Source of the DNA: Metabacillus endolithicus
GTDB taxonomy: Bacteria; Bacillota; Bacilli; Bacillales; Bacillaceae
NCBI RefSeq assembly: GCF_023078335.1
Contig: NZ_CP095550.1
Span: forward strand, 4,756,001 to 4,820,000
Direction of reading: 5' to 3'
DNA: 64,000 nucleotides
The translations under genes and the position numbers were made by a program. Within the stretch, counting starts at the first letter, position 1; every line of letters begins with the position of its first letter. Positions 6,192 to 31,316 of the stretch are shown piece by piece. The notes under the pieces were generated by a model. It saw nothing but the letters and a program-made list of their open reading frames with translations. It was not told the DNA's origin and ran no database searches.

Positions 6192-6247
6192 TTGACTGGA
6201 ACGTTCGTTCGTATTATACTAATTTCAACAAATACGAACAAATATTC
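6192..6247 (+). promoter_or_regulatory. yneA promoter with two LexA boxes
   Basis: TTGACT (6192-6197) and TATACT (6215-6220) are 17 bp apart. A perfect GAAC-N4-GTTC box at 6199-6210 fills the spacer. A second box with one mismatch (GAAC-N4-ATTC) lies at 6236-6247, downstream of the start point. Tight SOS control of yneA-yneB is expected. Confidence 0.85.
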
Positions 6248-6263
6248 CTATGAGGTGTAAAAT

Positions 6264-7254
<991 letters not shown>

Positions 7255-7419
7255 ATTATTGGTGAAAAAAATATGTTTTAAAGTTGTTATTTTCTCCTCT
7301 ATTTAGTAATATGTCATTTGTATCATTTAAAAGACTTTAAAGTGATATTATACTTAATCTCTTTGAGAGGTTAGCTGTAAGATTGAAGTCTATATGTTTA
7401 AGAGAGGAGTTTATAAAAC

Positions 7420-7650
7420 ATGTTACCGAAATTTAAAATCGATCGAATAAATGAATTATCCAAGAAATCAAAGTCAGTAGGACTAACTGATAAAGAAAAG
7501 AAAGAACAACAATCTCTTCGAAATGAGTATTTACAAGTGTTTCGATCTTCTATGAAAAACACTTTAAAGGGAGTAACAGTTGTTGATCCGAATGGTAATG
7601 ATGTAACGCCGCAAAAGCTAAAAAATGAGAGAAGCAAAGATCTACATTAA
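7420..7650 (+). CDS. ynzC: YnzC, DUF896 protein
   Basis: A 76-residue helical protein of the DUF896 family, which forms a short helical hairpin and has no settled biochemical role. In B. subtilis it is part of the yneA-yneB-ynzC SOS operon. AGAGAGGAG precedes the ATG. Here it is 165 nt from yneB, so it may also have its own promoter. A terminator follows at once. In B. subtilis tkt is the next gene, and it is missing here. Confidence 0.92.
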   Translation: MLPKFKIDRINELSKKSKSVGLTDKEKKEQQSLRNEYLQVFRSSMKNTLKGVTVVDPNGNDVTPQKLKNERSKDLH

Positions 7651-20328: not shown

Positions 20329-22088
20329 TTATAACTCCAGAGGATCTATCCAAATGGATTGAAAGTTAGTTAAACCGTAAGAGTCAAAAGATACACCTTT
20401 TAAAGAAGAATGATAATGCAGTGTATTTATTGCGTGATAAAGAAAATGAATTGCATGATCGTTCTTTAAGATTTCTTCAATTTGTAAGAGATAAGATATA
20501 CTTTTGATCTTCATTATTTTGCAATTTCATCAAAGAAAGCTTCGTATCAATGATCTGTTTTGTTTCATTGTTAAAGAAGTTTCTAATAAATGAATGATCA
20601 CTTTTGTAGAGTGTATACAAACCAAGCTCAACATCACGATCCAATATCACAGATAAGAGAACTAAATCGGCATTAGATGTAGCCTCGTAGTTGTAATGGG
20701 AAATTGGTGTAAGGGAAATGTTCAGCCCCAATCTTTTTTGCTTCATTTTGGATCCAGCATGCACTCTCATACCCTTCATTAAGGTTAAAATAATAAAGCT
20801 CAATGATCTCACCAGCATAATTACTTTTATGTAAGTAATTTTCAGCTTTGTCCAAATGTTGTGAATCACTGTTTACTTTTTGGCTATATGATGTTAGAAA
20901 ACTTGTAGCTGGTATACGCCGGTTTCCCCTTAACTCATTCACTAGATGACTCGGATTAATGAGATGTTTTATACACAAACGGAAGTAAATAGTAGATTGA
21001 TAGCCGTTTTTTATTTGATTAAATAATAGAAAACGGCTTCCGTCTAATTTTTGTTTATGGATGACAGACTTTTGTTGGTTTTCACCTATTTCCAATGTTG
21101 AAGCATTATTAGAATCATCGATGTTTTTTTTCATCCAAATATCAATAGAATCAATGAATGGTCTTTCTCGAAAATAAGAATCAAAGGCTACTAGGCGAAT
21201 AAAATGCTTGGTATGCTCAACCACTTTAAAAGGGCCTGTTCCGTTTGGAAGGTTATTTTTTTTATATGAATGATGAAGTACAGAACAGTGAAAGGATGTT
21301 AACACTCTTGGAAAAAACAAGTTATCCTCCTTTAAATAAAAGGAAATAGTGTGTTTATCATTTATCTCTACCTTTAATAGGTCATCTAGAAGTGGAGTGA
21401 TGCTTGTACGTTCACCAACTGTAAGTAGTTGTTCAAATGTGAATTTCACATCTGCAGCTGTGAATATTTCGCCTTGGTGAAACATAACAGATTTTCTTAG
21501 GTAAAAAGTCCATTTTTTTTCAGTGTTATTATAATTCCATGCGTAAGCTAAGCCAGGCATTAATTTTTGTTCACGATGCTCATAGGTAACAAGTGTACTA
21601 TATATTTCCTTTACTAGATGAGCTTCTGAGTAGAGAAGAACATCCATAGGAGTTAATGTGGTTATCTCTTGTGATAATAATATCTTGATGACGTTTCTGA
21701 AATCATCTTTTGATTGCTCTATGTTAGGACCAAGCTTTTTTGATAGGATGTTATATAAAGATTTTCGTCCTTGTTCGTTCAAATAAGAGGCATTTATAAA
21801 ATTTACAACATCGATAATTTTTTCTTCCAAAACCATTTCAGAAACATATTCTTCTGATAATTCTAAAAACCCTTGTAAAAAAAGAAGTTTTGACTTTTTT
21901 CCACGACCTCTACCCGAAACCCATTTTAATTTATGATCTGTACTTAATTTTTTTATTAAGTAATTTGTATTTCTTTCAGAAATTGAAAGTATTTCAGCAA
22001 CTTCCTTAAGAGTGATTGCAATTTCTTCGTTATTGTCAAAGTTATCAAATTTATTTCTTAAGATTAAAAGGTGTTCAATCTGTTTCAT
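20329..22088 (-). pseudogene. SgrR-type regulator with solute-binding domain, two frameshifts
   Basis: The N-terminus (residues 1-115) is an SgrR-like winged helix (KEVAEILSISERNTNYLIKK). A periplasmic solute-binding (SBP_bac_5) domain follows, with GLAYAWNYNNTEKKWTFYLR and FHQGEIFTAADVKFTF. In this family the binding domain is used intracellularly to sense a small molecule. The frame breaks at a G4 run near 20730 and an A4 run near 20506. Removing one base in each restores 585 residues ending GLTNFQSIWIDPLEL. AGGAGG precedes the ATG at 22088. It is divergent from the MFS exporter, a common pairing, and probably controls it. Confidence 0.85.
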
Positions 22089-22198
22089 ATATCCTCCTGA
22101 TAAAAGGTGCAATACTTCTTTTATTATTTCACTTTTTAGTTATTGTGTTTCAGGTTTAAATTAATAATAACAGATAATTGTGAATGGGGGATGTGCGT

Positions 22199-23439
22199 GT
22201 GATTGAACTACTTAAAGATAAAACCTATTTAAGGTATTGGTTCTCAGTTATTGTGTCATTTTTAGGGGATGCAATGACGGTAACAACTGTTTTATACCTA
22301 GTTGGTACAACGGTGGAAAACCCTTTGTTAATCGGGTTTGTTTTTGTTGCGCAATTACTTCCTGCTGTAATTCTTGGGCCATTAGTAGGGCCTTTAATAG
22401 ATAAATATTCAAGTAGGAAAATAATGATTTATTCGGATGTTTTTCGATGCTTCACGGTGTTATGTATGATTTTATTCGTTGATAAACCACTCGTTTTGAT
22501 TTGTCTCACTCTATTACAAGGGATAGGTACAGCGTTTTTTGAACCAGCGAGAATGGCATCTATACCAATAATAGTTGGAATAAATCGTATACCAAGTGGT
22601 ATAGCTTTATTTCAAACAACGGTTGCTGTCATCAAATTAGTAGGACCTGTACTCGCTGGCTTATTATTAGCTTTTCAATCACCAAGTTTAGTATTTGTAC
22701 TTGATGCATCATCCTATATCATTTCTGGATGTTTAATATTCAGCTTGAAAATATTAAAAGCTCAAAAAAAGAATATAACACAAATTCATATTTTAATAGT
22801 CTTTGGTACGGGGTTAAGGAGATGATCAAAACTCCAATTCTATTATTTATGATACTATTGTTGTTCCCGGTCCTGATTGGTTATGGTATGTTTTTAACAA
22901 ATTATAAAGCTGTATTGCTTCAATATTTTCAAGTATCTAATATAGAGTTCGGTATTTTAGAAGGGATATTTGCATTTGGAACGGTAATCGGGGCAATTGT
23001 AGGTTCTTATGCCATGAAAAAAATTGTTCATTATCAATTACTATATATTGCAATGGGAACACTTGGTCTAGGTGTTGTCAGTGTTTATGGCATTATAAAA
23101 TTAGATGTAATGTTTAGTCAGTCTGTCTTCTTCATACTGGGGGGATGGAGTTTTATTACAGGCTTAGCCAATGCTTTATTGATGATCCCGACAAGTTCGA
23201 TCTTTCTACTTAATTTACCTGAGGCTATTAGGGGAAGAGGAACGGCCATTTTTTATTCTATTTTCAATTTGTTTTTATTAGGCGGTACCCTTCTTGGGGG
23301 CCTTATTGCAAGTTCAATTAATATCCTGCTTGCATTGATCCTATCTGGAGGGATTCTACTTATCACAACCATCTCCTATCCAATATATAAAAATACAACA
23401 TTTATGAGGAAGGTAAAAAATACAGCTATTTCAAGGTGA
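22199..23439 (+). pseudogene. MFS transporter, frameshifted
   Basis: A 12-helix exporter of the major facilitator superfamily (MFS_3 type). FLGDAMTVTTVLYLVG and GPLVGPLIDKYSSRKIMIYS give the A-like loop motif after helix 2. The first half stops near 22825. The second half overlaps in another frame from about 22760 (QKKEYNTNSYFNSLWYGVKE). One extra A in the A7 tract at 22765-22771 joins them into 413 residues. The GTG at 22199 has GGGGGA seven bases upstream. It probably exports the product of the adjacent biosynthetic operon or gives self-protection (inference). Confidence 0.85.
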
Positions 23440-23508
23440 ATTTTATAAATGTATACAAAGAATATGTAATGTTAATTCTTTTTCTATTACTGAAAACGCT
23501 AGATGATT

Positions 23509-23550
23509 ACCTTTAACCGGAATAGAGCTAAAGGTTATTTTAATTTTTTT
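23509..23550 (+). terminator. Terminator between MFS and KAS III genes
   Basis: ACCTTTA (23509-23515) pairs with TAAAGGT (23529-23535) around a loop and is followed by a T-rich tail. It implies that the biosynthetic genes from 23675 have their own promoter, which I could not place with confidence. Confidence 0.65.
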
Positions 23551-23674
23551 GAAAAATATTTCTTAATGTTATCGAACATATATTTTCCATTTTTAAGAAA
23601 AGAGGTAAAATGACATAAGATATTATTCCTAGATCATACAAAAAGTAAGTTTTAAATAATGAGGTGCAGCCATA

Positions 23675-24663
23675 ATGAACCGTAAAGTGAAAATAGTTGG
23701 CATGGGTTCGTATTTACCAAAAAGATTAATAGAGTCAACAGAAATTGATAAAATGATTGGCGCAGAGTCCGGTTGGTCAGAGAAAAAATCAGGAGTTAAA
23801 CAACGCTATTTTGTAAGTGATGAAACTGCTACATATATGGGGGCAAAGGCGGCTAATAAAGCGGTTGAGAATGCTGGTCTTTGTCTTTCTGACATTGATT
23901 GTATTATTAGTGCAAGCGGGACAAATGAGCAGGCTATTCCTTGTAATGCTTCATTAATACAAAAGCATTTAGGACTTCAAAGCTCTGGAATTCCTTGTTT
24001 TGATGTTAATTCAACCTGTTTAAGTTTTGTGTCTGCACTCGATATGGTGTCATATGCTGTAGATGCTGGTAAATATGAAAAAGTATTAATTGTCTCTTCT
24101 GAAATTTCTTCAGTTGGACTAAATTGGAAACAACGTGAGAGTAGTATATTATTTGGTGATGGAGCAGTAGCGGTGGTTTTATCAGCTGCTAACAATACTT
24201 CCAAAATTTTGAGCTCACATATGGAAACATATAGTGAGGGAGCTCATTTATCAGAAATAAGGGGTGGAGGAACAAAGCTTCATCCACGTATTTATAGTGA
24301 ACAAACAGCTGAAGAGTTTTTATTTGATATGGACGGAAGAGCTATTTTTAAATTATCGTATAAGCTTTTACCAGATTTTTTGGATCGATTATTTAAAGGG
24401 ACTGGTTTAACGATTGCAGATATTAATATGGTTATTCCTCATCAAGCAAGCGCATCTGCTATGAAGATTATTCGAAAAAAACTAGGTGTAAAAGAAGAAC
24501 GATTTATGAACATTATTGATCGTTATGGGAACATGATTGCAGCATCCATTCCACTAGCGCTTCATGAAGCGGTAATTCAAGGTCGTATTAAAAGAGGTGA
24601 TACTATTTTACTGTTAGGGACTTCGGCAGGCTTTCAATTGGAGGTATTTTACTTGAATACTAG
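23675..24663 (+). CDS. 3-oxoacyl-ACP synthase III-like condensing enzyme
   Basis: A KAS III/FabH-type thiolase-fold enzyme expected to condense an acyl-CoA with a malonyl or second acyl unit. The catalytic triad is complete: Cys115 (NSTCLSF), His256 (IPHQAS) and Asn286 (YGNMIAAS). As sequenced, the frame runs on into the next gene as one 706-residue ORF. Restoring one G at 24640-24641 makes the end read QLGGILLEY followed by TAG at 24661. That is the canonical KAS III ending and gives 329 residues. I therefore annotate two genes. It is the first gene of the putative metabolite operon; GAGGTG precedes the ATG. Confidence 0.85.
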
Positions 24664-25795
24664 AAAAAGAGTTTTAGTAACCGGTGCCAGAGCCCCGGTT
24701 GCGCTCCATTTGTGTCGGCTAATGAGGGAGGCAGGGTTCGAAGTTTATGCAACTGATTGTATTTCATATCCATTAACAAAGATTTCTAATAGTATAAAAA
24801 AATTCATCTTAACTCCTTCACCAAAGAAAGATACAAAAAATTTTATAAAGTCCATAATCAACATAATTGAGCAACAAAAAATTACATTGATCATTCCAAC
24901 ATCTGAAGAAATTTTTTATATTTCTAGATATAGAGATAAGCTGACCCCATTTTGTAATGTGTTTGTTGATGACTTTGATAAAATAAAACTTCTACATAAT
25001 AAATATGAGTTTATTCAACTTGTGAAGGACTTGGGCTTTGAAGTGCCAAAAACAGCTTTGCTATCAAATCATGTAAATTTAGTTCAATTCGAAGACGAAT
25101 CTGCTCTTTTAAAAAAGGTCTATTCGAGATTTTCTGAATCCATAATTTTTCTACAATCTGTTGGTCAAATACCTAACCATATAAAAAGGGATGGAAGTTG
25201 GCTTGTACAAGAAAAAATTAAGGGCAAGCAATATTGCTCATATACGGTTGCCAAAGATGGAAAAGTACTTGCTCATTCTACTTACAAAAGTGAATTCACA
25301 GCAGGTTTAGGTGCAACTCTCTCATTCAAACATGAATACAGACCTGATATAGAACAGTTTTCACGTGATGTGGTTGAAAAACTTAATTTCTCAGGACAGA
25401 TATCTTTTGACTTTATCATACATGAAAATGGAGTCGCCTTTCCGATAGAATGTAACCCTAGAGCGACAAGTGGTCTCCATTTATTTGATAAGGAATTGGC
25501 TTATATATTCACAGCTGCAAAATCAATTCTTTATCCTGGGGAGGATAGAAAAGAAGCAATAAAGTTGGCCGTTTTTTTATTTGGATGGAAAAATGTAAAA
25601 AGTATAACACAACTTAGGAAATGGTTAGAGGTATTTATCTCATATAAGGATATTACGTTGAAAAGAAATGATCTTGGTCCGTACTTTTATCAAATAATTA
25701 GTTTATATAAGATGTGGAAGGAAAGCAGGAGAAATCAAGTTTCACTTATGGAACAATCCACCTTTGATATAAGTTGGGATGGTGAAAAAATTTGA
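24653..25795 (+). CDS. ATP-grasp ligase
   Basis: About 380 residues of the carbamoyl-phosphate-synthase-like ATP-grasp family, which form amide or ester bonds through acyl-phosphates. A pre-ATP-grasp Rossmann-like start (RVLVTGARAPVALHLCRLMR) leads to the nucleotide-binding segment (VQEKIKGKQYCSYTV) and the metal-binding ECNPRATSG near the C-terminus. The likely start is TTG at 24653 with GGAGG eight bases upstream, inside the KAS III end. Both apparent partners overlap by 11 nt, which suggests translational coupling. It probably joins an amino or hydroxyl partner to an acyl chain (inference). It overlaps the next gene by 4 nt. Confidence 0.82.
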   Translation: MNTRKRVLVTGARAPVALHLCRLMREAGFEVYATDCISYPLTKISNSIKKFILTPSPKKDTKNFIKSIINIIEQQKITLIIPTSEEIFYISRYRDKLTPFCNVFVDDFDKIKLLHNKYEFIQLVKDLGFEVPKTALLSNHVNLVQFEDESALLKKVYSRFSESIIFLQSVGQIPNHIKRDGSWLVQEKIKGKQYCSYTVAKDGKVLAHSTYKSEFTAGLGATLSFKHEYRPDIEQFSRDVVEKLNFSGQISFDFIIHENGVAFPIECNPRATSGLHLFDKELAYIFTAAKSILYPGEDRKEAIKLAVFLFGWKNVKSITQLRKWLEVFISYKDITLKRNDLGPYFYQIISLYKMWKESRRNQVSLMEQSTFDISWDGEKI

Positions 25796-26784
25796 ATGTT
25801 TTAGTAACCGGAGCTACTGGTTTTTTAGGGGGAAAAGTAGCACTTCATCTTGCTTCAATTGGATACAATGTAACAGGGACCGGACGAAACCAATTAGTAG
25901 GGGACACTCTTTCAAATTCTGGGATTCAATTTAAAGCATGTAACTTGGAAAATCGTGAAGACATCATGATGTTGTGTAAAAATCAACACTTTGTTATTCA
26001 TTGTGGAGCGCTGTCATCTCCATGGGGTAAATATCGAGACTTTTATAAAGCGAATGTTATTGGCACAAAAAATGTAATTGACGGTTGTAAAAAGTGGAAT
26101 GTTAGTCGGTTGGTTCATGTTTCAACACCAAGTTTATATTTTCACTATGACGAACGTAAAGATGTGAAAGAAAATGATATTTTACCGAAAAAATTCGTCA
26201 ACAATTACGCAAAAACTAAATTTCTTGCTGAAAAAGAAGTAGACCAGGCTTTTATAGAAGGATTACCAACCATAACGATAAGACCTAGAGCTTTATTTGG
26301 TCCTGGTGATCAGGCTATATTTCCAAGACTAATAAAGGTATGTGAAAAGGGGTTGTTTCCTAAAGTTGGGTCTGGAGATGTTGTCATTGATATGACTTAT
26401 ATAGATAATGCTGTAGATGCAATTCATTTATGTATGAACTCTGGGCCGGAAACATTGGGGCAAAAATATAATATTACAAATGATGAAAGAGTTCATCTGT
26501 ATTCTATGATTGATACAGTAATGAAACAACTAGGCAGGTCCTTTTCTTATAAACAGATTTCATATAAAAAAGCTTTTCATTTAGCAACATCTCTTGAGTA
26601 TGTATCGAAACTTCTTCTTTTTGGAAGAGAGCCGCTACTCACGAGGTATACAGTAAGTGTTTTATCTCAATCTCAAACACTTTCAATTGAAAAGGCAAAG
26701 AGTGAATTAGGATATAAGCCGGGGGTTTCTGTTAAAGATGGGACGAAGGAATTTGTAGATTGGTGGAAGTTAAATGTTCATTAA
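25792..26784 (+). CDS. NAD-dependent epimerase/3-beta-HSD-like reductase
   Basis: A 330-residue extended short-chain dehydrogenase. The cofactor motif GATGFLG is at residues 7-13, Ser111 is in HVSTPS, and the catalytic Tyr139 and Lys143 are in YAKTK. The sequence style (GALSSPWGKYRDFYKANVIGT) resembles OleD-type reductases that act on 2-alkyl-3-ketoacids as well as sugar epimerases. Beside a KAS III it most likely reduces a beta-keto intermediate (inference). The TTG start overlaps the ATP-grasp stop by 4 nt, and the next gene overlaps its end. Confidence 0.88.
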   Translation: MNVLVTGATGFLGGKVALHLASIGYNVTGTGRNQLVGDTLSNSGIQFKACNLENREDIMMLCKNQHFVIHCGALSSPWGKYRDFYKANVIGTKNVIDGCKKWNVSRLVHVSTPSLYFHYDERKDVKENDILPKKFVNNYAKTKFLAEKEVDQAFIEGLPTITIRPRALFGPGDQAIFPRLIKVCEKGLFPKVGSGDVVIDMTYIDNAVDAIHLCMNSGPETLGQKYNITNDERVHLYSMIDTVMKQLGRSFSYKQISYKKAFHLATSLEYVSKLLLFGREPLLTRYTVSVLSQSQTLSIEKAKSELGYKPGVSVKDGTKEFVDWWKLNVH

Positions 26785-27625
26785 CATGGTAAAGATTTTT
26801 GCTTGTGGATATTGTACACATCCAGAAAAAATTGTGAATCCAAAACAATCATTAAAGCCAATAAAATTTCCAGCCACAGTTGCTTTATTAGAGCATCCAA
26901 CACATGGCTATATCTTATTTGACACAGGATATGCTTCCTATTTTTTAGAAGCTACTAGGTCATTTCCCTATTCCATTTACGCAAATTTAACACCTGTTTT
27001 CTTCTCAGAAGAACGATCGATTAAAAATCAATTAAAGAAACAAGGCATAGATCACAATGACATTAACATGATTATTCTTTCTCATTTCCACGGAGATCAT
27101 GTTGGTGGATTAAAGGATTTCCCAAACGCAAAAATTTTAACTTTTAAAAAAGCATATAACCACATCAAAAAACTAAGCAAGCTGAGAGCTTTAACAAAAG
27201 GCTGCTTGCTTGATTTACTTCCTCAAGATTTTACTGAGAGAGTTTCTTATATTGATGAAGGCCCCTTTACTAACATTAAGTGAAAGTTATCATCCATTCA
27301 TGGAAGGTTATGATGTGTTTCGAGATGATTCTATCATTGCTGTTGACTTAACAGGACATGCAGTGGGACAGCTTGGAATATTTGTGAATCTGAGTAGTGG
27401 GAAAAAAATCTTTCTTTGTGCTGATGCTGTTTGGCAAAGTACTGCTTTTGAAAAGATGATTTTCCCTCATCGCATGCCCATTTATTAATTGAAGATATTG
27501 ACGCTTATAAAAAGAATATTAAAAAGTTACATCTTTTATTTAAGCAAAATCATCATATTGAAATATTGCCAACTCACTGTCAAAAAACATGGGAGATTGC
27601 AAAAGAGGGTATTATTTATGAATAA
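26774..27625 (+). pseudogene. Metallo-beta-lactamase-fold hydrolase, two frameshifts
   Basis: The fold is of the lactonase type, with the zinc motif HFHGDH at residues 104-109, DTGYAS near 50, a later His (DLTGHAVGQLG) and CADAVW. Two one-base breaks split it: a T3 or C4 run near 27270 and a C3 run near 27478. Correcting both gives about 283 residues ending HIEILPTHCQKTWEIAK. It may hydrolyse a thioester or lactone in the pathway, such as releasing or opening an acyl product (inference). It overlaps the genes on both sides. Confidence 0.82.
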
Positions 27626-28951
27626 ATCACTTTTACTCAAACAGTATTTTCTTACAAAGTATGGTAGGAGGTTTACTACTCGGGAAAAATTGCTTGCTTT
27701 TCATGACAAAAAAATGAAAAATCATATAACATTTGTTTTAAAGCATTCTACCTTTTATAAAGAACTCTATAAAGATGTACTGAACAATCATAACTGGAAA
27801 TCTCTTCCCATCATCACAAAATCTGATATGATGGACTCTTTTAATGAGTTAAATACCGTCGGAATTAAGAAAGAAAAAGCTTTTCAGTTAGCTTTTGATG
27901 CGGAAGAAACTAGGGATTTTTCACCTAGAATAGGAAATGTTTCAATAGGTCTTTCTTCTGGAACAAGCGGAAATCGAGGCTTATTTCTAGTAAGCAGCAG
28001 GGAAGAGGCAATGTGGCTGGCACGGTTCTTGCGAAGATGTTACCGAGCAGTATTTTCAGAGAACATAAGGTTGCCTTTTTTCTCAGGGCAAATAGTAATC
28101 TTTATGAATCTACAGAAAGCGGAAAAATCAGCTTTCATTATTTTGATCTGTTAGATTCCTTTCCTAAGCATATTGAAAGATTAAATCAGCTTAAACCTTC
28201 AATTATTATTGCACCTCCTTCGATGTTAAGAATGATTGCCACTTGGAAGGATAAACAGATTATTAGTATTTCTCCAGAAAAAATTATATCGGTAGCAGAA
28301 GTATTAGAAGATCTTGATAAATCATATATAGAAAACATTTTCGAGCAAACTCTTCATCAAGTATATCAAGCAACAGAAGGATTTTTAGCTGCTACGTGTT
28401 CATATGGAGTTCTTCATATGAATGAGGATTTAATCTCGGTTCAAAAAGAGTATCTTAACAAAGAAAAGGGAATATTTGTACCGATTATTTCAGACTTTAC
28501 TAGGAAAACGCAACCGATTATTCGATATCGTTTGAATGATATATTAATAGAGAGAAAGACTGCATGTCCCTGTGGGTCGCATTTTTTAGCATTAGAACGG
28601 ATAGATGGGCGTTGTGATGATCTTTTTTATGGGGAAAATTTATTAACAAATGAAGAAACATGTTTATTTCCAGATTTTATTAGAAAATCTATCATGATCT
28701 CATCAAATCAGATTTTAGAATATAAGGTTATACAGCGGGAGTTCAACTTAATAGAGATTAAGTTGAAGGTAGAAAGTGATGAAGAAGCAGTTAAAGACCT
28801 TGTTTTAGCTGAGTTGCAAAAATTGTGGAAACATTATCAATTAGTAGTTCCACAGTTTCAATTCACCCCCTATGACATCGTTACTTCGGACAAAAAGTTA
28901 AAACGAATTGAAAATAGGATGAAGGTAAAAAGTAATGATTCAATTATATAA
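27618..28951 (+). pseudogene. F390-synthetase/PaaK-like adenylate-forming enzyme, frameshifted
   Basis: A 444-residue member of the group annotated as F390 synthetase-related or putative adenylate-forming enzymes, related to phenylacetate-CoA ligase. The ATP-loop SSGTSGNRG, the segment YQATEGFLAATC and the IIRYRLNDI motif are present, and a CPCG pair may bind metal. The frame breaks near 28013-28016; adding one G turns EEAMWLAR into EEAMWAGTVLAKMLP and joins both halves. It should activate a carboxylate as an acyl-adenylate. No carrier protein lies beside it. It overlaps the MBL gene by 8 nt and the next gene by 17 nt. Confidence 0.83.
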
Positions 28952-30069
28952 TGCTGATAATTATCATAAAATCGATTGGTTTTCTAAGCGAAACGGACAG
29001 TTTTTAAAAACTTACTTTGAGCCTTTAATAGAATACGAGATTTCCCGTTTTATTGAAAATGTTCATTCGGAAATTTATTTGTTAGAAGTAGATGACCTTC
29101 TTTTGCCGGTTTCTGTAACTGACAAACAGTATAAAGATTCATATGTTGCTTCACCTTACACTCATTATATTAGTTATGCAAAAGAAGAGTTATGGGAGCT
29201 AAAGAATAAGGAAACTTGAGGTGATCCTTCGCCCTGTTATCGAGATGATGGGGCAGTTTCTTCGAAAGAGTAACATGAATAAAGTTGTTATTGTTAATAA
29301 TTGGTTTTTATCAACAAATCTATTTGAATCAACTCTGTCTTTTAATCAAATACAGAGAATCACTGAATTTTTAGTGAAGAGGTTCCCTAAACACACTATC
29401 TTGTTTCGGTCGATTACAAAGGATCTACATGAAAATATGATGAAATCGTTTGATACAGTTGGATATAAAAGAATAATGTCACGCTCTATCTACCTATTTT
29501 ATCCTGAACAAAAACTAACGAAACAACAACTAAAAAACCTCTATCAAGATGAAAAACTGATCAAAAAACATCAGTATACAATTAGAGATGCAAGTATAGA
29601 AGATTGTGATGTTATATTGCTTTTGTATTCAGAATTATATATACAAAAGTATTCTACTAATAACCCTCAGTTTACAACAGAGTTCATACGTCATGCGTAT
29701 AAAAGTAAGTTATTAACCTTTAAAGTGGTTTGTAAAGGTGAGCAAATTGTCGGTGCTATAGGATTTTTCATCCAAGGAAAGGTGCTGACGACCCCGATTT
29801 TAGGCTATAACATGAAGATGGAGAAAAATACTGGGTTATACAGGGTTCTTTCATTTCTTATTACGAAAGAAATAATGAATAATCATTATATTGGGCATCG
29901 TAGTGCTGGGGCAGGAGAATTTAAAAGAAAGCGCGGTTCCACTCAACAGATTGAATATACATTTTTTTATCAAAAACATTTGCCTATGACGTATAAGTGG
30001 GGGTGGAATTTGCTCAAAAAGATAATGGATCTTGTTGTCGAACCATTAGCTAAGAAAAAACAATTTTAA
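28935..30069 (+). pseudogene. GNAT-like acyltransferase, frameshifted
   Basis: The C-terminal half (from about residue 190) reads like a GNAT domain: KVVCKGEQIVGAIGFFIQGK is the strand pair that usually holds acyl-CoA, and AGEFKRKRGSTQQIEYTFFY follows. The first 95 residues (MIQLYNADNYHKIDWFSKR...) stop at 29217. The rest continues in another frame; removing one A near 29211-29213 gives about 377 residues. It is the last gene of the overlapping operon and may transfer an acyl or aminoacyl group to finish the product (inference). AAGG lies nine bases before the ATG. Confidence 0.68.
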
Positions 30070-30164
30070 CCTGTTAAATAACGACTTGCTATAATTACCA
30101 TCGCTACTTGTAAGAGTTATTTGTTACTATTTTAAAAGAGTTTGCAAAAAAAGGAGTGAATACC

Positions 30165-31316
30165 TTGAAAAAGCAATATCTTTTACTGATAGTGGCTGTT
30201 ATCTTGTTTGCAGGAGGATTTTTTTCAGGCGTTCTCTTCTCGAATATAGAACATCAAAAGCTAACTAACGATCAGTCTAAACAAACTGAGAATTTATCTA
30301 AATCTACAAAACAACCGATTTCGAAAAAAATTCCAGAAATACAGGAATCCAAACCAAAAGTATTAATAGGCTATGTTCAAGATTTTAGAGATCCAGAAAC
30401 AATTGATTTTTCTTCACTAACGCACGTTGTATATTCCTTTGCCCATCCGACTAAAGATGGAAGTGTTTTATTGAATGGAGGAACGGAACCAACTAATTTA
30501 AAAAAGTTAGTAAAACGTGCACATAATCATAATACAAAGGTGTTACTAGCCGTTGGTGGCTGGTACCATATTGAAGGCGGCGAATCGTATGATTATTTTA
30601 AAACGGCCATTTCTTCGGAAACCTCTAGAACTAAATTAATAAATGAACTATTAGCTATAGTGGATAGAGAACAATTAGATGGAATAGACATCGATTTTGA
30701 GCATCCACGGTCACAAGAAGATGCCGACCAATTGTTAGAATTTACAAAGCAATTGAGCAATAAATTGCATCAAAAAAAGAAACAACTCACAATCGCTGTC
30801 TACTCAAAAATTCACAGTGTAGCAGGTACAGAAATTCAATCAGTTGTATTTCATCCTGAAATGTTTACCTACGTAGATTATGTTAACATTATGGCTTACG
30901 ATGGCCAATGGGACGGGGAGTACAATGCAGCGAATTTAGCTCCTTATTCATTTATAGAAAACATTGTGAACTATTGGGGAGCACTTTTTGACACTTATAA
31001 ATTACCACGTGAAAAACTGGTACTGGGTGTTCCTTATTATGCTCAACCTGAAGATCCATCAATTAAACAAATGTCCTTTGAAGCAATTATCGCCACTAAT
31101 CCTGAATTTGCTCATCAAGATAAAGCTCAAGTAAATGGAACAACATATTATTATAACGGCATTCCCACTATAGAGAAAAAGACCAAGCTTGCTATAGATG
31201 AGGAATTTGGAGGTATGATGATATGGGAGATGGGACATGATGCACCTGGTGATTATAGTTTAACAACAGCGATAGCAAAATTATTAGAAAATGAAAAATT
31301 ATTAGTAGGACAATAA
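30165..31316 (+). CDS. Membrane-anchored GH18 family glycosidase
   Basis: The 383-residue protein starts with an uncleaved membrane anchor (residues 5-27, LLLIVAVILFAGGFFSGVLF) and a Ser/Lys-rich linker. A glycoside hydrolase 18 barrel follows from about residue 65. The catalytic motif DGIDIDFE ends in the acid/base Glu, and MAYDGQW and MIWEMGHD are the later barrel strands. Substrates in the family include chitin and peptidoglycan glycans. I chose the TTG at 30165 because AAGGAG lies eight bases before it. It is monocistronic with a strong terminator. Confidence 0.9.
   Translation: MKKQYLLLIVAVILFAGGFFSGVLFSNIEHQKLTNDQSKQTENLSKSTKQPISKKIPEIQESKPKVLIGYVQDFRDPETIDFSSLTHVVYSFAHPTKDGSVLLNGGTEPTNLKKLVKRAHNHNTKVLLAVGGWYHIEGGESYDYFKTAISSETSRTKLINELLAIVDREQLDGIDIDFEHPRSQEDADQLLEFTKQLSNKLHQKKKQLTIAVYSKIHSVAGTEIQSVVFHPEMFTYVDYVNIMAYDGQWDGEYNAANLAPYSFIENIVNYWGALFDTYKLPREKLVLGVPYYAQPEDPSIKQMSFEAIIATNPEFAHQDKAQVNGTTYYYNGIPTIEKKTKLAIDEEFGGMMIWEMGHDAPGDYSLTTAIAKLLENEKLLVGQ

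Follow-up and report, generated by a model that had tools for sequence, protein, structure and literature searches.

A widely conserved, apparently uncharacterised KAS III, SDR, MBL and F390-like operon family and its damaged or badly assembled member in Metabacillus endolithicus

The six-gene operon and its relatives

The window, that is, the whole stretch of 64,000 nucleotides (nt) analysed here, comes from the 5.3-Mb genome of Metabacillus endolithicus (contig NZ_CP095550.1, positions 4,756,001 to 4,820,000). It carries, on the plus strand, a damaged or badly assembled member of a real, widely conserved and apparently uncharacterised biosynthetic operon family. The four core genes encode a beta-ketoacyl synthase III (KAS III; 23675..24652; NF005541/PRK07204 family), an intact extended short-chain dehydrogenase/reductase (SDR; 25792..26784; OleD/NSDHL-like), a lactonase-like hydrolase of the metallo-beta-lactamase (MBL) fold (26774..27625) and an F390 synthetase-related adenylate-forming enzyme (27618..28951; TIGR02304). 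Two accessory genes encode an ATP-grasp ligase with a PylC/amino-acid-ligase-like fold (24653..25795; NF005315/PRK06849 family) and a FemX/MprF-like double-GNAT protein (28935..30069), the fold of which was taken from a relative (L040). The core genes lie next to one another (23675-28951), with the ATP-grasp gene between those for KAS III and the SDR and with frameshifts in the block.

The gene identities, order, strand and coordinates given in a first-pass annotation of the locus were borne out, and the Cys-His-Asn triad that it ascribed to KAS III is complete in the alignment row of the window protein. The overlaps that it listed (11, 4, 11, 8 and 17 nt) can be located between reading frames in the window sequence and resemble the medians in relatives (11, 4, 22, 13 and 17 nt; 58-95 loci), some of which are too high because the first possible start codon was taken. 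The six genes that it listed are not all separate and continuous in the window. The C-terminal end of KAS III continues in frame into the ATP-grasp protein, giving a single open reading frame (ORF) of 706 amino acids (aa; 23675-25795), whereas relatives have two overlapping genes here. The genes for the MBL (ORFs 26774-27283, 27210-27488 and the rest to ~27625), the F390-like enzyme (within ORFs 27489-28154 and 28013-28951) and the GNAT-like protein (ORFs 28935-29219 and 29221-30069) are frame-split. The reading frames of the window copy are thus not intact, for which assembly error is a possible cause.

For comparison, 104 non-redundant loci were assembled: 17 from genus or order relatives with TIGR02304 over the cut-off, 69 taken from the 80 best of 465 relatives, and 18 from plasmid regions (among 30 records). 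Twelve loci were dropped before counting, 11 from genomes already in the set as L033-L049 and one (L186) that repeats the Escherichia coli locus. A family was scored as present when an ORF anywhere in the fetched stretch matched it at E<=1e-20, and adjacency was scored separately. Because the loci were picked by their F390 relatives, the following co-occurrence figures are conditional on F390 similarity: F390 was present in 102 loci, MBL in 100, SDR in 96, KAS III in 94, ATP-grasp in 82, GNAT in 64 and a second, classical SDR in 32. All four core families were present in 92 of the 104 loci, mainly from Bacillota and Pseudomonadota. The order of the window (KAS III, ATP-grasp, SDR, MBL, F390, GNAT) recurred more than expected by chance, with gaps of <=400 nt, in 48 of the 102 loci with F390, comprising 34 in this form and 14 with the further SDR; the contiguous core alone was seen in 13 and the core with ATP-grasp in 12. 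Distances between the proteins were correlated in all 15 pairs (r 0.755-0.936) and the catalytic residues were near-invariant across relatives, while the flanking genes vary from genus to genus. GNAT was accompanied by ATP-grasp in 59 of 64 loci and ATP-grasp stood without GNAT in 23; both are absent from M. halosaccharovorans and Bacillus sp. J37. Of 20 genus relatives, 15 have an F390-family protein that passes the cut-off, and matches at E<=1e-80 were found in 9 of 398 genomes drawn evenly from the phylum (own genome counted).

These data agree with the earlier proposal of a biosynthetic operon without a characterised match, since it recurs widely in a kept order, rather than in few genomes with unrelated order or as a cluster with a known product. 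No description of the operon family was found in the literature searched, a limited set with most subscription journals outside its scope; related operons may be covered in Iyer et al. 2009, on amidoligases. None of the PADLOC defence families matched the six L040 proteins at E<=1e-5, and a check for viral carriage gave six stretches that fitted a pattern, in none of which tblastn detected a relative of the query.

Distribution and exchangeable accessory genes

F390 relatives were found by protein search in 30 of 72,556 plasmid records, 18 of which were inspected. A single locus, usually with the genes side by side, holds the whole four-gene core in Ketogulonicigenium, Paracoccus, Pseudomonas, Rhizobium, Shinella, Paraburkholderia and a record labelled Roseateles, and also in records from Burkholderia, Fusobacterium and Novosphingobium whose annotation was not usable. 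Two Pseudomonas megaplasmids differ, one (L179) carrying only F390 and an ATP-grasp gene and the other (L188) scattered core genes, in both cases amid many hypothetical genes. Outside these groups, six cyanobacterial loci hold varying subsets of SDR, MBL, F390 and GNAT, in which KAS III was not seen, and the stretch of a Candidatus Sericytochromatia locus (L119) holds KAS III, ATP-grasp, SDR, MBL and F390.

In E. coli, a seven-gene operon between narI and purU encodes KAS III, SDR, MBL and the F390-like enzyme, followed by a PAP2 protein, a fatty-acid hydroxylase and a desaturase (6149-13030 of L178; 8001-14882 of L186). The block is present in 672 of 5426 complete genomes, with 671 of 673 places being chromosomal, and K-12 lacks it at the narI-purU site. 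In a "plasmid" record, KE48, the genes next to the operon are chromosomal ones, and the record is probably a wrongly labelled piece of chromosome. PAP2, hydroxylase and desaturase genes likewise follow the core in Burkholderia stagnalis, with 41-48% identity to those of E. coli.

Other accessory genes accompany the core elsewhere. ATP-grasp and GNAT occur with a Rieske-type oxygenase in Shinella, Roseateles, Rhizobium, Paraburkholderia and two Paenibacillus loci, the ATP-grasp gene being on the opposite strand in the first three; Novosphingobium has ATP-grasp and the Rieske-type oxygenase without GNAT. The Paenibacillus loci L093 and L125 each have a second ATP-grasp gene in addition to genes for a FemX-like protein and a Rieske-type oxygenase. 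A DUF3419 (BtaA-type) gene adjoins the FemX-like GNAT gene in Rhizobium and Shinella, where no ATP-grasp gene was found (L185 10235-12398; L192 10259-12422), and a divergent sulfotransferase gene lies upstream in three Rhodobacterales loci.

A conserved operon in several phyla, including so many E. coli genomes, constitutes a concrete, testable gap, and the exchangeable tailoring genes provide independent hints on the chemistry of the product. The operon family, which occurs in bacteria from soil and in many strains of E. coli, is of greater interest than the window copy, and its E. coli branch is the most interesting part. The co-occurrence of the core suggests a role in a pathway of KAS III, SDR, MBL and F390-like enzymes for the F390 synthetase-related family (TIGR02304), or at least for the part of it that we sampled.

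Frameshifts and neighbouring genes in the window

Disrupted genes are concentrated around the operon, making up 8 of the 11 genes compared in 19.6-34.1 kb and 3 of 35 in the rest of the window (Fisher p 8e-5). Six of the eight were flagged by the comparison; the other two, KAS III and SgrR, were included manually on the basis of alignments, and without them the figure is 6 of 11 (p 0.003). In the 11-13 kb of coding sequence compared in this patch, frame-changing indels numbered 11 against the comparison genome G002 and 12 against G015, every one a single base, which corresponds to 9-10 per 10 kb, compared with 1.6 and 4.0 per 10 kb elsewhere in the window. Genome-wide, overlapping pairs typical of frameshifts were about twice as frequent as in a relative (74 and 34, respectively, in 400 kb sampled from each). 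One relative (L038) has unbroken reading frames for all six genes of the operon. In the nearest relative (L043), four of the six are continuous, the MBL gene is shortened and the ATP-grasp gene (6213-7525) is broken into two ORFs ~190 nt apart.

The density of disrupted genes and the damage in the nearest relative speak for a functionless pseudogene cluster in this genome. The indels also strike neighbours outside the pathway, a chemoreceptor-like gene downstream of the operon and a peptidoglycan-binding-like gene (both named by eye), and most gene pieces keep 80-98% protein identity to relatives, falling to 61-68% only where alignments pass a break. This is the pattern expected from poor local assembly, and since unrelated neighbours are hit, the patch is more likely to be mainly a local assembly error than selective decay. 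The share of indels at runs of at least four identical bases (5 of 11 and 5 of 12, vs 22% of positions by chance) leaves decay and error undecided. Taken together, we consider a pseudogene cluster somewhat unlikely; the operon in the window may lack activity, or it may simply have been badly assembled.

Upstream of the operon lie a frame-split gene for an SgrR-type regulator (SgrR_N and SBP_bac_5 domains; 20477..22112, minus strand) and a frame-split gene for a major facilitator superfamily (MFS) transporter (22184..23439, plus strand). The first-pass annotation had them sense and export the product, and a secreted signal or antibiotic served by a dedicated regulator and exporter would account for their position directly upstream and for the finding that each of the 5 relatives with one of the two genes has the other as well. 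The pair was found in only 5 of the 104 loci, all Metabacillus and all among the 17 close relatives. In each of these five, MFS and KAS III are separated by a gene of ~400 aa, judged EAL-like by eye, that the window lacks (23440-23674), and other loci have different neighbours. Because the pair is so rare among the loci, it is probably outside the operon, which argues against the export and sensing roles, and a secreted signal or antibiotic of this kind is hardly to be expected. The terminator placed before the KAS III gene is weak: the fold has a z of -0.61, 48 of 200 shuffles folded equally well, and it was absent from the list given by a scan. No known RNA family reached its gathering score within 18.0-34.5 kb. 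Downstream, a GH18 glycosidase gene (30156..31316, plus strand) recurs among Metabacillus relatives.

A putative pathway and its relation to known systems

From the observed gene content, order, co-variation, catalytic residues conserved in relatives and predicted folds of two proteins, we infer each reaction, the reaction sequence and the product as follows. KAS III would join an acyl chain, which the residue in its pocket suggests is long, to a second activated acyl unit, and the SDR would reduce the resulting beta-keto group. The MBL may hydrolyse a thioester or lactone en route, and the F390-like enzyme would adenylate the freed carboxylate for joining to another group. In Bacillales, including the window, a PylC-like ATP-grasp enzyme and a FemX/MprF-like transferase would then attach amino acids, so that the end product would be a lipid or lipid-like metabolite that is both hydroxylated and aminoacylated. 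Both the acyl-derived product and the amino-acid attachment suggested earlier are plausible in this light, the latter given the folds of the two accessory proteins. The GNAT label itself held in part: the model of the L040 relative has a double-GNAT fold and resembles the aminoacyl-tRNA transferases FemX and MprF over nearly the whole protein, although no Pfam family was found for it by sequence. A search of solved structures with the GNAT profile gave one match (E 0.08), taken as chance.

In short, a four-enzyme core would make an activated hydroxy-acyl chain and interchangeable modules would finish the product, here by ATP-grasp and FemX-like attachment of amino acids. This is the simplest account of a conserved core surrounded by lipid-active and amino-acid-adding accessory families, and we give it a little less than an even chance. 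Rather more tentatively, the operons may make an undescribed class of bacterial lipids, with a KAS III/SDR/MBL/F390-like core common to Bacillales, proteobacteria (about one-eighth of complete E. coli genomes), Fusobacterium and, in part, cyanobacteria. Its head group or chain would be set by exchangeable modules: ATP-grasp with the aminoacyl-tRNA transferase, a BtaA-like protein with that transferase, the Rieske oxygenase, the sulfotransferase, or PAP2 with hydroxylase and desaturase.

Two other routes start from a head-to-head condensation. In one, KAS III would fuse two chains in the manner of MxnB/CorB, one of them a beta-keto chain, into a pyrone or other two-chain product. The SDR would reduce its lactone-type ring and the lactonase-like MBL would open it, after which the acid would be activated and conjugated. 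Among solved-structure sequences, the window KAS III scores 257 bits with MxnB (4v2p) and 251 with CorB (4yuc), compared with 195 for the best FabH and 110 for PqsD. The column of the OleA/PpyS catalytic glutamate, taken from PMC4578411 and placed by hand on our alignment, holds Ile in 71 and Leu in 23 of 94 proteins and Glu in none; MxnB and CorB likewise have an aliphatic residue there (V94) (PMC4578411). Among solved structures, lactonases come closest to the MBL; its metal ligands (HxHxDH..H..D..H) are kept in 94-100 of 100 sequences, the remainder being gaps, and the L040 MBL does not reach the cut-off for N-acyl homoserine lactone lactonases (AiiA/AttM; AttM 103.5 vs 390 bits). Since MxnB and CorB fall within the FabH clade (PMC4578411), however, similarity to them fails to fix the reaction of KAS III, and the operon has no polyketide synthase or carrier protein to supply a beta-keto chain. 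We regard such a product as unlikely. In the other route, an OleABCD-like pathway with replaced enzymes would lead from a head-to-head beta-keto acid to a beta-hydroxy acid and, through the AMP-forming ligase, to a beta-lactone, with the MBL in the place of OleB. The four kinds of activity match OleABCD, and the best NCBIfam match of the SDR is OleD (220.3 and 227.1 bits). That score lies far below the cut-off of 580, the glutamate base of OleA is absent from all 94 KAS III proteins, the ligase belongs to TIGR02304 with PaaK as its nearest solved relative, no chain named OleA nor 3S23 was among the matches listed for 43 solved sequences at E<=1e-20, and the operon has no alpha/beta hydrolase gene of the OleB type, as had been noticed earlier. 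With each Ole component failing as tested, the proposed analogy to OleA, OleC and OleD is weak and this route is very unlikely. Nothing favours a beta-lactone product specifically.

Members of the operon family score above the curated cut-offs of TIGR02304, NF005541 and NF005315 (563.8, 525.3 and 429.1 bits, respectively, for the intact relative L040), names that carry no described pathway. MxnB and CorB, of myxopyronin and corallopyronin synthesis, are the closest solved relatives of KAS III and share its triad and its lack of an OleA-type glutamate, but they serve large polyketide synthase assembly lines rather than a small operon. OleABCD resembles the operon in combining a KAS III, an SDR of the OleD kind, an AMP-forming ligase and a hydrolase; it differs in its condensing enzyme and ligase, in having an alpha/beta hydrolase rather than an MBL, and in lacking the ATP-grasp and FemX-like proteins. 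The PqsABCDE alkylquinolone pathway unites an acid ligase, a KAS III and an MBL. The operon adds an SDR to these, its KAS III is far closer to MxnB than to PqsD, and the solved structures matched by the MBL at E<=1e-5 include no chain named PqsE.

The accessory proteins have known counterparts in fold. PylC and L-amino-acid ligases share that of the ATP-grasp protein, but the identity to PylC is 14% and carboxylases match nearly as well, so that the fold search fails to separate ligases from carboxylases. FemX, MprF and the aminoacyl-tRNA-dependent peptide synthases Sbb17 and Sba18 have the same double-GNAT fold as the other accessory protein, at 8-12% identity; the latter sits in a KAS III operon, and its use of tRNA is predicted from the fold. 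OlsE- and BtaA-type enzymes act in the formation of ornithine and betaine lipids, respectively. Their genes are not in the window, and the OlsE-like score is 66.6 against a cut-off of 475, but members of these families accompany the core as accessory genes in E. coli, Burkholderia and Rhizobiaceae.

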